From: Pseudomonadota bacterium
GTDB lineage: Bacteria; Pseudomonadota; Gammaproteobacteria; Xanthomonadales; Rhodanobacteraceae
Assembly: GCA_021827205.1 (NCBI GenBank)
Contig: JAKAWV010000001.1
Coordinates: forward strand, 310,001 to 374,000
DNA length: 64,000 bases
Direction of reading: 5' to 3'
In this document: piece after piece, positions 6,185 through 19,070 of the stretch
How positions within the stretch are numbered: position 1 is the first letter of the stretch
Layout of the letters: every line of letters begins with the position of its first letter
The notes under the pieces: model-generated
Seen by the model: only the letters and a program-made list of their open reading frames with translations
The model's database searches: none
Told to the model about the DNA's origin: nothing
Translations under genes and position numbers: made by a program

Positions 6185-7059
6185 TCCAGCTCGCGGTGAA
6201 AGGTGAGCACCTGCGTGTGACGCTCGCGGAAGTGCTCGGTCAGGCGCTCGGCCAGATACACCGAGCGGTGACGTCCGCCGGTGCAGCCGATGCTGACCGT
6301 GACGTAGCTGCGGTCCTCCTGCACGAAGTGCGGCAGCCAGCGCTCCAGCATCTGCTCCAGATCCTGCGCGAACTGCTGCGCCAGCGGCTGCGCATCGAGA
6401 TAGGCACGCACCGCGGCGTCGCGTCCCGACAGCGGACGCAGCGCCGGATCCCAGTGCGGGTTGGGCAGGCAGCGCGCGTCGAACACGAAATCGGCATCCG
6501 GCGGCAGTCCGTGCCGAAACGCGAAGGACTCGAACAGCAGTGTCAGCCCATCGCCACGCAGCCCGTAGCTGGTGGCGATCAGCCGGCGCAACTGGTGCAC
6601 GTTGAGCTCGCTGGTGTCGATCTGGCGCTCGGCGATCGCGCTCAGCGGTTTCAGCAGCGTGCGCTCGCGCGCGATCGCCCCGGCCAGCGACAAGCCCTGC
6701 GCGGACAGGGGATGGCGCCTTCGCGTTTCCGAATAGCGCTTGATCAGCACCTCGTCGCGCGCGTGCAGGAACACCAGCTCGGCCGGTGTGCCCGCCGCCG
6801 CCAATTGCGCCAGCACGCCCGGCATGCGCGTGAGGTCATCGCCCTGCGCGCGCACGTCGATGCCCACCGCGATGCGCCGCGGGCCGCCATTGCCGGCGGT
6901 GAGTGCATCGGCCAGCGCCGGAATCAGCGCCGCGGGCAGGTTGTCCACGCAGTAAAAACCAAGGTCTTCGAGAGTGCGCAAGGCCACCGTCTTGCCGCCT
7001 CCGGACAGACCACTGAGCACCATCAAACGCGGTGCGTTGGCCTCGATCACGCTCACCAT
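6181..7059 (-). CDS. rapZ: RapZ/YvcJ-family nucleotide-binding protein
   Basis: P-loop protein of about 292 residues; in E. coli it is the adaptor that delivers the small RNA GlmZ to RNase E and so controls GlmS (amino-sugar synthesis). The Walker A motif GLSGGGKT is at residues 17-24, followed by [17 protein letters not shown], and the C-terminal RNA-binding part holds [16 protein letters not shown]. Two coupled starts are possible: ATG at 7059 or GTG at 7056, the latter making a GTGA overlap with the hprK stop. It is translationally coupled to EIIA downstream. Whether it controls glmS here cannot be told from this window. Confidence 0.93.
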
Positions 7060-8006
7060 GGCGGCAGCTTCTGCATCTGGTGCGCCTGGCGATCGATGAA
7101 AGTCTGCGCGGGGTCGATGCCCTTGCTCTTCAGCATGTGATTGCGCACCGCGGCTTCGGCCAGCACCGCAAGATTACGCCCCGGTGCCACCGGGATGGTG
7201 ATCTGCGGCATCTTGACGCCGAGAATCTCGCGCTGGCCGAGCACGCCGGTGAGGCGCTGCATGCCGTCGCGATCGCCGCTGTGCTCGCCCGAGGGCAACA
7301 GGTGCAGCACCAGGCGCAGATATTTGGAATCCTTCACCGCGGTGTGGCCGTACATCTCGCGCACGTTGAGCACGCCGAGCCCGCGCACTTCCAGCAGGTC
7401 GCGCAGCAGCTCCGGGCAGGCGCCGTCGATCACGTCCGGCGCGATCAGGCTGAACTCGGGCGCGTCGTCGGCCACCAGACGATGGCCGCGCGTGATCAGG
7501 TCCAGCGCCAGCTCGCTCTTGCCGGTGCCCGGTTCGCCGGTCACCAGCACGCCGATCGAGTAGATCTCCATCAGCACGCCGTGCAGGGTTTGCGCGCGCG
7601 CCAGTATGCGCGTCAGGTGGTACTGCAGCCATGTGTAGATTTCGTGCCCGCGCTGCGCGCTGATCCACAGTGGCGTGTCACTGTCCTCGGCGGCTTCACG
7701 CAAGTCCGCCGGTACGGCCTGATCCTTGGTCACGACCACCGCCACCGGACGATGCACGAAGATCTTTTGCAGCGTTTCCCAGCGTTGGCGCGGCTCCAGC
7801 CCGTCAAGATAAGCCAGTTCCTCGCTGCCAACGATCTGCACGCGATTGGGGTAGATCACATTGAGATAGCCCACCAGGGACGGTCGGCGTTCGCGCCCGG
7901 CGCTGGGTTCGAGCAAGCGGCTTTCGCCGCGCACGCCGGCCACCCAACGCAGCGCGAGGCGCTCGTTGACTTTCTCGAACAACTGGCGGGCAGTGATGCG
8001 TTCCAT
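7053..8006 (-). CDS. hprK: HPr kinase/phosphorylase
   Basis: Bifunctional enzyme that phosphorylates HPr on Ser46 and removes the phosphate again. It has 317 residues. The P-loop GEPGTGKS is at residues 157-164, preceded by the conserved His142 in [12 protein letters not shown] and followed by the family signature [15 protein letters not shown], which takes part in phosphorolysis. It is the first gene of the minus-strand operon with rapZ and EIIA. In related genomes the genes upstream are usually ptsN, hpf and rpoN; here an approximately 1.1-kb gene-free stretch lies upstream instead. Confidence 0.95.
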
Positions 8007-8199
8007 CCGTTCGCTCGGCGCGTGATCTGCGCATTCTGCCAGCAGGGGATGGCACGCGTATCGCGCGTCAGGTCGAGCGCCCCACGGGTGTCACCCTGAG
8101 CTTCGCTGAGGATCCATCTTTCTCTCCTCCGGAGATGATGATGTCGTCCGCTCTTGCCCGAGCGCTCGTTGCGCGTGAACCATTGTTTTGCGTGGAGCC

Positions 8200-8236
8200 T
8201 CGCAAGGTTGCCCTGTTCCGTGCGGCTGCCGCCGCG
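8200..8236 (+). repeat. Partial direct copy of the element end
   Basis: The segment running from CGCAAGGTTGCC through TGTTCCGTGCGGCTGCC is a direct, slightly diverged copy of the left end of the adjacent 8263-9032 element. It lacks the following stem-loop. It lies about 60 bases outside the element, so a second insertion or a tandem duplication of the end is likely. Confidence 0.65.
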
Positions 8237-8262
8237 CTTGAACGCGGGTGCTTGCGCAGCGC

Positions 8263-9032
8263 TTCGCAAGGCTGTTCTGTTCCGTGCCGCTGCCGCGGCG
8301 CGGGCTACTTTCCTTGCGGGGAAAGTAGCCAAAGCCATCCACGCGGCAGCTTGCGCCGTGCTGCGCACGGTGACTAGCTTCGCGCATCCTGCGCTACGCA
8401 AGTCACGCTGCCCTCGGCTCCTGCCGCGGGCGCTCGACGCCGCGCGACCTGCCTACTGGCAGGTCGCCAGCGCGACGTCTCACCCTGCGCTGCTCGCCGG
8501 CCGCCTTGTCCGCTCTCGCATCCTGCTTCGCGGCCAAGCCCGGCCCGTGCCTTCCGGGCGCGGGCGCGCAGCGCATGCGCTGCGCCCTGCGCGAACTCGC
8601 CCATCCATGGGCTCGAACATGCGCGCCTTTCCCTCGCGCCCGGCTGCGCTGCTCGGCGCTGGCCAACGCTACCCAGATCAAAGGCAACGGCGCGCGCAGC
8701 GCGCGCTGTTGATCTTCAATCCCCATCGGCAGCGGCGGGACTGCGCGGGAGAGGCCCGCAGGGCGAGCGCGAGGGGTGAGGCAGCCACTCCTGCCGAACG
8801 CCCGCAACACGATGTTGCGGGCCGGGCGATCCGGCCCGTGCAGGATGCACAGGCCGAGATCGCGCTCACGCGCCGCAGGCCAGGGATGGCCATCGGCGCG
8901 CCCCGCGCAGGCACGCGCACCCGCGCAGCGGGCGCTGCGGTCGGGGTCGGCTTTCTTTGGTTCCTTTCTGTGCCGATCAAAGAAAGGAACCCGCGCCGCG
9001 GCAGCGGCACGGAACAGGGGCAACCTTGCGAA
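8263..9032. mobile_element. Non-coding element with about 42-bp inverted ends and internal stem-loops
   Basis: The left end (8263-8304) is repeated as its reverse complement at 8990-9032, differing mainly in a short block in the middle. Just inside each end lies a perfect 11-bp stem-loop: GGCTACTTTCC at 8303-8313 pairs with 8320-8330, and GGTTCCTTTCT at 8959-8969 pairs with 8981-8991. A third perfect 10-bp hairpin (GCGACCTGCC, 8444-8453 with 8458-8467) is internal. No plausible protein gene is present; the long open frames here are composition-driven. The parts recur singly at 1561-1615 and 8200-8236. Whether this moves as a unit, or is two repeats in opposite orientation around a degraded gene, is not shown by the sequence. 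Confidence 0.55.
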
Positions 9033-9104
9033 GTCCAGGCAAGTGCGAGCGTCCACGCCAGCGCCAAGGCCAGCGTCACGCGCGAACATTCCCGCTTCAG
9101 CGAG

Positions 9105-10043
9105 CTACCCCCGCGTGCCGCAGCCGGCCAACTCCCCGATCACGGCATTCAGCGCCACCGGCCACGGCGGCAGATGCAGGGCGAAGGTTTGCTGCACGCG
9201 CGCGCAGTCCAGCACCGACCAGGCCGGGCGTTGCGCGCGGGTGGGATAGTCGGCTGTGGTGATTGCCTGTATCTCCGGCATGCGCGCGATCAGTTCGGCG
9301 CGCTGCGCCGACGTCAGCAGCGCCGTGGCGAAACCGTGCCAACTGGTGTGGCCGGCGGCGGTGAGGTGATACGTACCCCACGGTACATCGCTCCCGAACG
9401 TACCGCGCGGCGCGCTGCGTGCCACGATCGCGGCGGTGGCGTTGGCGATCAGGCGCGCCGGCGTGGGCGTGCCGAATTGGTCACTGACCACACGCAAGGT
9501 GTCGCGCTCGGCGGCGAGGCGCAGCATGGCGCGCAGGAAATTGCGACCGCGCGCGGCGTACACCCAGGCGGTGCGCAGGATCAGGTGCGGCGCGCCGCTG
9601 GCGCGCAACGCCTGTTCGCCGGCCAGTTTGCTGGCGCCATACACGCCCAGTGGCGCGGCCGCATCATCCTCGCGCCACGCGCGCTGGCCGCTGCCGTCGA
9701 ACACGTAATCGGTGGAGTAGTGGATCACCGGCACGCCGCGCGTGGCGGCCCAGCGCCCCAGCGTGTCCACGGCCTCGGCGTTGATGCGCCGTGCCAGCGC
9801 GGGCTCGTCCTCGGCGCGATCGACGGCGGTGTAGGCGGCGGCATTGACGATCAGATCCGGCGCGGCGTCATCCAGCAGCGCGCGCAGCACGGGCGCGGCG
9901 GCACCGAGGTCAGCCACGCGGCAGCGCGCGCCACCCGGCAGCGTGCCGTCGCGCGTGGCCGGCCACAGCGCGCCCAGCGGCCCCAGCGCGCGCATCAACT
10001 CGAAGCCGACCTGACCGCCCGCGCCCAGCAGCAGAATCTTCAT
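9105..10043 (-). CDS. rfbD: dTDP-4-dehydrorhamnose reductase
   Basis: Last enzyme of dTDP-L-rhamnose synthesis, reducing dTDP-4-keto-L-rhamnose with NAD(P)H. It has 312 residues; the Rossmann motif GAGGQVGFE is at residues 7-15. The catalytic YGASKLAGE motif and the substrate-site stretch HYSTDYVFDG are present. The ATG at 10043 overlaps the rfbC stop (ATGA). It ends with TAG close to the mobile-element end, without an evident terminator hairpin of its own. The order B-A-C-D on one strand, all with 4-base overlaps, shows a single translationally coupled unit. Confidence 0.94.
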   Translation of the reverse strand: MKILLLGAGGQVGFELMRALGPLGALWPATRDGTLPGGARCRVADLGAAAPVLRALLDDAAPDLIVNAAAYTAVDRAEDEPALARRINAEAVDTLGRWAATRGVPVIHYSTDYVFDGSGQRAWREDDAAAPLGVYGASKLAGEQALRASGAPHLILRTAWVYAARGRNFLRAMLRLAAERDTLRVVSDQFGTPTPARLIANATAAIVARSAPRGTFGSDVPWGTYHLTAAGHTSWHGFATALLTSAQRAELIARMPEIQAITTADYPTRAQRPAWSVLDCARVQQTFALHLPPWPVALNAVIGELAGCGTRG

Positions 10044-10597
10044 GCGCGGTATTCGGGCAGGCACGCGGCATCGATCTCGCGCAGGCGCGGGGCAGCGCTG
10101 TCCTTGGCCGAGAGCAGTGGCGCGTGCAGCGGCCAGGCGATGGCGAGTTCTTCGTCGTCCCAGCGCACGCTGGCGTCGGCGCTGGCGTCGTACAGCGTGG
10201 TGCACTGGTACATGAAGGTGGCGTGCGCGCTGAGCACGCAAAAGCCGTGCGCATAGCCTTCCGGAATCCAGAACAGGCGATGGTTTTCGGCGCCGAGGCT
10301 CGCCGCCGTCCAGCGCCCGAACGTGGGCGAGCCGCGGCGGATGTCCACGGCCACGTCCCAGACCTCGCCTTCGAGCACGCCGACCAGCTTGCCCTGTGCG
10401 CCCGGCCACTGATAATGCAGGCCGCGCAGCACGCCACGCGCCGAGCGCGAGACGTTGGTCTGCGCGAAGCGCAGATCCAGCCCCAGCGCGGCGAACTTGG
10501 CGGCGTGGAAGCTCTCGAAAAAATACCCGCGCGTGTCGCCATGCACATCCGGTTCGAGGACGCACACGCCGGGCAGCTCGGTGTCGATGCGCTTCAC
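10040..10597 (-). CDS. rfbC: dTDP-4-dehydrorhamnose 3,5-epimerase
   Basis: Cupin-fold epimerase converting dTDP-4-keto-6-deoxy-glucose to the L-rhamno form. It has 185 residues, usual for RmlC. Motifs: [26 protein letters not shown] with the catalytic histidine, and [13 protein letters not shown]. The start is a GTG at 10597; it forms a GTGA overlap with the rfbA stop, and the first residues [20 protein letters not shown] are where the family begins, so longer in-frame extensions are rejected. It overlaps rfbD by 4 bases. Confidence 0.93.
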
Positions 10598-18438: not shown

Positions 18439-19070
18439 CGTCGCGCGGCTCCTGGCTTGGACACCGCCACGGCGCGCTGGTAATCGCGTTCGGCACCGCC
18501 ATCCTCGATGCCTTCGATTTCCAGCAGCACTTTCACTTTCACTCCCACGACGCTGTCGAACGCATCCATGCCCCACAGTTTGCGGTCCAGCGTGGCGATG
18601 CCGGTAAAGCCGGCCACCGTGTGCAGGCCGAAAATGGTGAATGCGCGCTTGTTGAAGCGGAACGGAAACGCCAGACCCTCGGTGTGACCGCGCAGGGTGA
18701 GCTGGCCATAGAGGATGCCGGTGTCCGGCCCGGTCTTCTCCACCGAGGTACTGACGAAGTGCGCATATGGGTGCGCCTTGGCGTCGAGGAAATCCGTGCC
18801 GGCCACCACGCGGTCCCAACCCCCGTCATCCATGTCCACCGAGCCCAGCGCGATATCGGCCACGACTTGCGATGCGGCCCAGTTTTTTTGATCGAAGCGA
18901 AACCAGCCGCGCGCGATTTTCAGCCGTCCCACGGCGTCGCTGTAACCGTCGTGATCGACGAAAAACACCACCGCGCTATGCACCGGATCGAAGCGGTACT
19001 CGGCCGCCCGCGTCAGCGGCGCCAGCAGGCAGCCGAGCAACAGCAGGTAGCGCAGTCTTGGCGCTCGCAT
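18435..19070 (-). CDS. YceI-like periplasmic protein (upstream copy)
   Basis: About 211 residues with a signal peptide (MRAPRLRYLLLLGCLLAPL, cleavage near TRAAE). The mature protein begins YRFDPVHSAVVFFVDHDGYS, the standard YceI opening, and has SVDMDDGGWDRVVAGTDFL and GQLTLRGHTEGLAFPF. The ATG at 19070 is chosen for the signal peptide; in-frame ATGs upstream (to 19109) would add a poorly hydrophobic extension. It is the first gene of the three-gene operon and ends in an ATGA overlap with cytochrome b561. The divergent sensor-kinase gene starts 138 bases away. Confidence 0.88.
   Translation of the reverse strand: MRAPRLRYLLLLGCLLAPLTRAAEYRFDPVHSAVVFFVDHDGYSDAVGRLKIARGWFRFDQKNWAASQVVADIALGSVDMDDGGWDRVVAGTDFLDAKAHPYAHFVSTSVEKTGPDTGILYGQLTLRGHTEGLAFPFRFNKRAFTIFGLHTVAGFTGIATLDRKLWGMDAFDSVVGVKVKVLLEIEGIEDGGAERDYQRAVAVSKPGAARR

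Follow-up and report, generated by a model that had tools for sequence, protein, structure and literature searches.

The window analysed here, a stretch of 64,000 nucleotides, contains a composite element between the genes for HprK (7053-8006) and RmlD (9105-10052). The element belongs to a widespread family of non-coding repeats, for which no name was found. The core spans 8262-9033, between the terminal sequences CTTCGCAAGG (8262-8271) and CCTTGCGAAG (9024-9033), as delimited by its inverted arms and by comparison with the equivalent site of the congener G011. The inverted ends described by a previous sequence-only reading are real: the arms at 8277-8316 and 8978-9017 (40 nt) are 93% complementary, and a second pair, at 8200-8213 and 9018-9031 (14 nt), is 100% complementary. 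The same reading had described a 770-bp element within 8200-9032. Measured against the G011 site, the additional stretch is 8260-9033 (774 bp), and 8188-8237 is a separate truncated left end, on the plus strand, which adjoins the element as a direct repeat of 8252-8301 (82%). Single ends do recur, as had been claimed: besides 8200-8237, a degenerate one is found on the minus strand at about 1540-1614 (match C7:311540-311594, 85% to query positions 109-163). At 8090-8115, the window also carries GTGTCACCCTGAGCTTCGCTGAGGATC, which resembles another dispersed repeat (GTCATCC..GAGCATCGCGAAGGATC) adjoining the copies of the element in G011 and in a further relative, G008.

Each end of the element is formed by two adjacent hairpins, H2 outside and H1 inside. 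On the left, H2 (8282-8303, 9 bp with one G-T on the plus strand) is seen in the sequence and in the minus-strand minimum free energy (MFE) fold, and belongs to an end common to the copies C13, C23, C4 and C27 of the same genome; it is followed by H1 (8303-8330), a perfect 11-bp stem of GGCTACTTTCC and GGAAAGTAGCC. On the right, H1 is recognised in the sequence at 8959-8991, and H2 at 8991-9012 from sequence, MFE fold and comparison of ends. The stem-loops previously noticed inside the ends are therefore present, the left one indeed with a perfect 11-bp stem, but they are part of the ends and not a separate inner feature.

The architecture is that of two mirror-image folded units, each capped by its two outer hairpins, which bears out the earlier idea of a composite of two inverted repeat units. 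The right unit (8717-8960, plus strand) is a multi-branched structure with stems P1-P6, recognised by the covariance model R1 described below (44.2 bits, E 5.9e-8); its P4 loop holds about 85 extra nt, a stretch common to C13 and missing in C4 and C27. Within it, the MFE fold shows a hairpin with a GGA loop, GTGCAGGATGCAC, at 8838-8850 (plus strand), and the tip of the P5 hairpin, GGCCAGGGATGGCC, at 8878-8891 (plus strand), has a GGGA loop closed by A-T, according to R1 match, loop count and MFE fold. The left unit (8331-8675, minus strand) gives no R1 match and is delimited by its minus-strand MFE fold and by its likeness to relatives, with modular, partly deleted counterparts in C13, C23, C4, C27, G008 and G011. 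Its fold presents GGA-loop hairpins on the minus strand near 8599-8612, 8518-8526, 8416-8425 and 8382-8394. Between the units lies a variable central spacer, defined by this position, with approximate borders at 8676 and 8712. In other genomes, spacers contain short tandem repeats, of GGCAAC in G011 (L073:1290-1370) and of GGCTCTT in G495 (L178:1440-1495). The only further R1 match in the window, at 18671, is at chance level (E 0.085).

That the element is non-coding, as the sequence-only reading held, agrees with the lack of any Pfam match in the five open frames tested across it. A search of the 64-kb window against Rfam 15 gave no match at the gathering score, and the best hit for 8150-9080 (E 0.15) is far below the gathering score of its family. 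No published account of the repeat was found in a literature search limited to open-licence PMC papers.

When the genome of origin was searched with 8200-9035, 38 matches were obtained. Six composite copies were recognised among them, namely that of the window (C7), C13, C23, C4 (which includes a run of N), C27 and the degenerate C28, besides fragments. The copies have common ends and a collinear but modular interior; the distance from H1 to H1, taken for all of them except C28, is 690 bp in the window, 369 in C13, 503 in C23, 543 in C4 and 409 in C27. R1 matches the right units of these same five copies. Other pairs of ends enclosing different DNA, which the earlier reading had suggested looking for, do occur, both in these modular interiors and as different-looking ones in Caballeronia and Rubrivivax (judged by eye). 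By DNA comparison, a match was found in 14 of 31 genomes, the own genome included. The two ends of one element carry common private changes, for example in G011_2036 (also by eye).

The element had been thought to mark the point at which the usual gene order upstream of hprK is lost. This was not borne out, since the RmlD-HprK junction is present without the core in 4 of 12 congeners (G005, G002, G003 and G011). In the first three, 55, 80 and 114 nt, respectively, separate the aligned blocks and no element is found, which suggests, from the sequence of these sites, that the whole element is an addition. At the G011 junction there is only a short palindrome, formed by the flanking arms. Here G011 reads CTTGCGCAG and then TTCAAGGCAAAAG, while in the window the core lies between CTTGCGCAG and TCCAGGCAAGTG; therefore 8260-9033 is extra. 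The arms around the G011 junction are similar to the outer arms of other copies, which leaves two possibilities, insertion of the core into a palindrome or its loss from G011. A target-site duplication, proposed earlier as a check, is not visible at this single site (window versus G011). Among the remaining congeners, G012 has about 2.9 kb of other DNA between hprK and rmlD (L382:1-3601), the two genes are on different contigs in G004, G006, G008, G009 and G010, and only the hprK side was matched in G001 and G007; because of these last seven, the order of the two genes may vary within the genus.

The folded unit was defined in G420, where a right-end pattern has 40 exact matches. Both ends were recognised in 15 of the 20 loci taken, 533-635 bp apart, and the 12 loci inspected as sequence mostly contain two versions of one folded unit, inverted around a spacer; L135 and L138 show one recognisable unit each. 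After one overlapping duplicate was dropped from the 32 units found, 31 were left. They fall into two types (14 and 17 units) with the same fold despite many differing stem letters. A G420 unit measures about 240-250 nt, H1 and H2 included. Model R1 was built from an alignment (A1) of 19 units, 17 of these 31 with one each from G447 and G493, and thus on genera other than that of the window. At E 1e-3, R1 matches in 82 of the 117 family genomes sampled, covering 21 of 26 genera, and in 24 of 151 genomes of the order, which belong to four families; both counts include the own genome and are lower bounds, with 23 or 18 candidates scored per genome. Scoring 150 candidates in each of six chosen genomes gave 19 to 52 matches per genome.

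The fold is conserved by covariation. In alignment A2, made of 106 matches (E <=1e-3) from 72 chosen loci and reduced to 92 distinct rows, 93.1% of the paired cells hold a pair, versus 67.0% in shuffled and 35.1-46.9% in slid controls, two-sided changes occur in 55 of 57 base pairs, and the covariation score is 0.607 versus 0.162; A2 was fitted to the model, which favours the structure in this test. The unfitted A1 points in the same direction (90.8% vs 82.2%), with further pair types no higher than in shuffles (34 vs 34.7). Conserved G-A mismatches in the long helix, which a few unit types had suggested, were discarded: the single countable position of this kind is a Watson-Crick pair in 62 of 92 units and G-A or A-G in 24.

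Copies sit downstream of genes in G420, the genome in which their placement was assessed: for the 17 of 20 loci where both neighbours could be assigned, by codon-position GC, 9 are convergent, 7 tandem and 1 divergent. In G495, the GC skew of 20 sampled stretches was used to assign all 41 units found to a replichore. Orientation agrees with the replichore for 33 of the 41 (Fisher p 1.3e-4): the arm of positive skew has 17 units on the minus and 5 on the plus strand, the opposite arm 16 on the plus and 3 on the minus strand. This takes 0.8 Mb, the point at which orientation changes, as the origin border; the skew would permit a border anywhere within 0.58-1.06 Mb, for which 28-33 of 41 units agree. 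The bias is weak in G463, where 6 of 9 judged units agree (4 of 6 on C1 and 2 of 3 on C4 of that genome), the 12 of 21 units left out being two lower-scoring partners on C1 and ten on C5, C6 and C7.

GGA is found in the loop region of P5 in 89 of the 92 distinct units, of P4 in 74, of P6 in 42 and of P3 in 1. The P5 loop takes the forms CAGGGATG (23 units), CAGGATG (16), CATGGATG (13), CACGGATG (7) and others, and all 7 pairs of the P5 stem vary on both sides while the GGA of the loop stays. In the window, the MFE folds give the left unit four GGA loops (minus strand) and the right unit two (plus strand). GGA in a hairpin loop is the form of CsrA/RsmA binding sites, and the CsrB and RsmY RNAs have several hairpins with such loops. 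The units could therefore work as RNA: read-through transcripts of the preceding genes would fold, their (A)(N)GGA loops would bind CsrA/RsmA, and the copies would be dispersed putative sponges or stabilisers at 3' ends. We consider this unlikely, although the persistence of GGA in the P5 loop over a varying stem, together with its occurrence in P4 and P6, is what it would predict, as is the position of the G420 units behind genes. A csrA gene is present in all 14 genomes tested; it is equally present in the six of them without an R1 unit match, which weakens the argument. Excerpts of one report describe Xanthomonas as being without CsrB, RsmY and RsmZ homologues, and RsmU as one known 3'-UTR sponge of RsmA in that genus (PMC7694677), a setting in which such a function would fit.

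The strand on which the unit would act was also considered. In both unit types of G420, the consensus folding energy prefers the GGA strand (-122.8 vs -107.7 and -118.0 vs -105.1). Pair columns with at least 70% Watson-Crick pairs contain more G-U than A-C on that strand (100:48; by units, 43:18), as they do at other thresholds (125:90, 64:23, 36:17). Against the RNA function, this asymmetry is small, G-U making up about 2-4% of pairs, and it vanishes in a helix-extension test (G-U 221, A-C 209; units 37:32) which a control on 26 tRNAs shows to be tilted towards A-C. Nor does the folding energy favour the GGA strand in the window (z -5.4 vs -6.2 and -3.8 vs -6.1). The strand tests thus disagree; one more of them was circular and is given no weight, and the pair-column counts serve as weak evidence. 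The strand asymmetry is weak and does not decide between RNA and DNA. No sigma-70-like promoter was found in 8000-9200; the same interval has 6 terminator-like sites, versus 0.9 in shuffles, which we read as a by-product of the stem-loops.

The end hairpin is also found around different interiors in named beta- and gammaproteobacteria. A search with the H1 pattern returned at least 120 named stretches, 80 of them listed with their organisms, and the matches listed include Caballeronia, Candidatus Burkholderia, Lysobacter, Luteimonas, Pseudoxanthomonas, Thioalkalivibrio, Thiobacillus and metagenome-assembled genomes (MAGs). At E 0.01, R1 matches 17 places in the 80 listed stretches; full-length matches among these are in Pseudoxanthomonas, Thioalkalivibrio and a gammaproteobacterial MAG, partial ones in Lysobacter and Luteimonas, and the single Caballeronia match is weak and away from the H1 pair. 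The Caballeronia loci L242 and L274 have H1 in common with the element, but long inverted arms and another interior. Neighbouring H1 ends no more than 6 kb apart, among the 120 matches listed, form 58 pairs, of which 57 are inverted (46 with ends outward, 11 inward) and 1 is direct, with no exact duplicates. In three loci (G604 L202, G572 L203 and G030 L217), the two units of the pair point their outer ends towards each other, opposite to what the window shows.

Plasmid and phage collections were searched with ends from Caballeronia, G420 and Thioalkalivibrio, and not with the window's own end. The Caballeronia end is found in 8 plasmid records, all of them large replicons (Caballeronia, Paraburkholderia, Variovorax), and no annotated feature lies beneath the match in the 7 that are annotated; in Caballeronia, these are its large secondary replicons. 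Horizontal movement is not evident, because these records are large replicons, the G420 end matched no plasmid record and the Thioalkalivibrio end matched nothing in the phage collection.

A link to a RAYT or Y1-type transposase, which the sequence-only reading had proposed to look for, received no support from the Y1 genes examined. The three Y1_Tnp genes of the own genome have no end motif in the 4-kb stretches scanned around them. Ten unit-bearing genomes were searched for Y1_Tnp: 9 gave a match, which passes the cut-off in 7 and falls below it in G447 and G493; G472 gave none. Around 14 Y1 loci (13 of relatives and the own C32, with L148, L149 and L156 left out of the comparison), other inverted repeats of at least 13 nt are found in 8 and none in 6, and the H1 motifs tested occur at 0 of 14. 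The RAYT-like genes L142, L141, L150, L151 and L147 have inverted arms of GGGTCAGAG or AAAAGGGGACGTGG type, a separate kind of terminal repeat.

No transposase was recognised inside the pairs either, as judged from the length of the longest open frame in six wide pairs among the 120 loci listed. Two pairs elsewhere do enclose whole genes, which fits the earlier suggestion that the repeats are able to carry the DNA between them but does not prove it. In G402 (L198:947-2287), the gene for a 446-aa orphan protein, with no Pfam or PADLOC match, lies inside two closely similar inverted units and is a possible cargo; in G500 (L199:1264-2565), an inverted unit pair encloses an S41 peptidase gene.

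Two explanations other than trans-mobilised repeats bear on these results. Replication slippage, template switching and gene conversion might spread and homogenise the repeats passively, with no dedicated transposase. The likeness of the two ends of one element, with their common private changes, the near-perfect inverted arms of Caballeronia L242, and the lack of both transposase and target duplication in the loci examined all agree with such a process, yet the copies stand at unrelated loci with defined borders, and slippage alone would hardly account for a 774-bp addition at one site; we give it a low probability. A still lower one is given to a classic MITE, with ends derived from an IS whose autonomous form was missed. 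Terminal inverted repeats around a non-coding interior, and the absence of annotated features beneath the matches in the seven plasmid records, are as would be expected of a MITE, but the ends are double hairpins, the interior is a conserved fold, the single site compared shows no target duplication, and no transposase-enclosing pair was recognised within the scope given above.

The explanation we prefer, at about even chances, is that the element is a non-autonomous mobile palindromic repeat, comparable to a very large REPIN and moved in trans. Two inverted copies of the folded unit, each with its outer H1 and H2 caps and a variable interior, would constitute the moving unit; the hairpin ends would be recognised, probably while single-stranded during replication, by an enzyme supplied in trans, and the copies would settle in intergenic DNA, mainly behind genes. 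Repetition, pairing in inverted order, the covarying fold, presence or absence at one orthologous site and, in one genome, positions behind genes are direct observations. That the element is moved by an enzyme, by which enzyme, and that it passes through single-stranded DNA are what we infer; movement in trans through the hairpin ends, perhaps as single-stranded DNA, is suggested by the likeness to REPINs and by the bias of unit orientation in G495. Dispersed copies in the own genome with common ends and modular interiors speak for mobility, together with the element-free rmlD-hprK sites, the family-wide unit and its covarying fold, the 57 of 58 inverted neighbours among the matches listed, the genomic placement and the G495 bias. 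Counted against it are the lack of a transposase within the pairs examined, the flanks of the Y1/RAYT genes with other repeats or none, the missing target duplication at one site, the lack of evident horizontal movement in the plasmid and phage collections, the latitude in the G495 origin border and the weak G463 bias; moreover, conserved loops deep in the unit would be unnecessary for mere end recognition.

REPINs, as described in the available text of PMC3116915, likewise consist of two inverted palindromic units and a spacer, are extragenic, occur as singletons and pairs, and move in trans by hypothesis; in SBW25, 93% of 430 REP doublets are inverted. According to that text, 71 bp separate the starts of the conserved 16-mers in a GI REPIN, as against H1-H1 spans of 369-690 bp in five own copies of the present element. 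Each unit here is, unlike those of REPINs, a multi-branched fold, and no RAYT with the element's ends was found in the loci examined. REPs are short (20-40 bp), with a GTAG tag on one side, as compared with about 240-250 nt for the G420 unit; GTAG occurs inside the left H1 of the window, and GTAA or GTGA is mostly found there in the inspected G420 units.

TIRYT genes and TIRtrons resemble the element in their long, partly self-complementary terminal inverted repeats (TIRs), dispersed in dimers and clusters; in the part of PMC3733652 that treats them, what defines a TIRYT family is the Y1 gene enclosed by its TIRs, and GGGGWSAS is common to several of the families. Unlike in TIRYTs, some of the Y1 genes examined here carry GGGTCAGAG-type arms in place of the element's ends. 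The MITEs NEMIS, ERIC and RUP are also non-coding and intergenic with inverted ends, but at 70-300 bp, the range stated in that same part of PMC3733652, MITEs are smaller than the element, which differs further by its double-hairpin ends, its conserved internal fold and the absence of target duplication at one site. With RsmU RNA, as presented in the excerpts of PMC7694677, the unit shares several hairpins and GGA in a loop; it differs from CsrB, RsmY and RsmU in being a dispersed inverted DNA repeat with no recognised promoter of its own.

Taken together, these features would allow selfish inverted repeats to scatter putative CsrA/RsmA-binding RNA structures with (A)(N)GGA loops behind genes, which would link transposition to post-transcriptional regulation. 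The unit would have been retained, in Xanthomonadales-like relatives and further afield, in the form of a folded nucleic acid; we regard this model as quite unlikely. The folded repeat, which R1 detects in 82 of the 117 family genomes sampled and in as many as 52 units within a single genome, has no entry in Rfam, and our searches found no paper on it. If it is mobile, it would extend the REPIN idea to units with a conserved internal fold, and would raise the question of the enzyme. If its GGA loops bind CsrA/RsmA, it could supply sponges to a group with few known ones and would be a case of repeats spreading regulatory RNA structures. The covariance model and the element-free sites make both the mobility and the RNA ideas directly testable.
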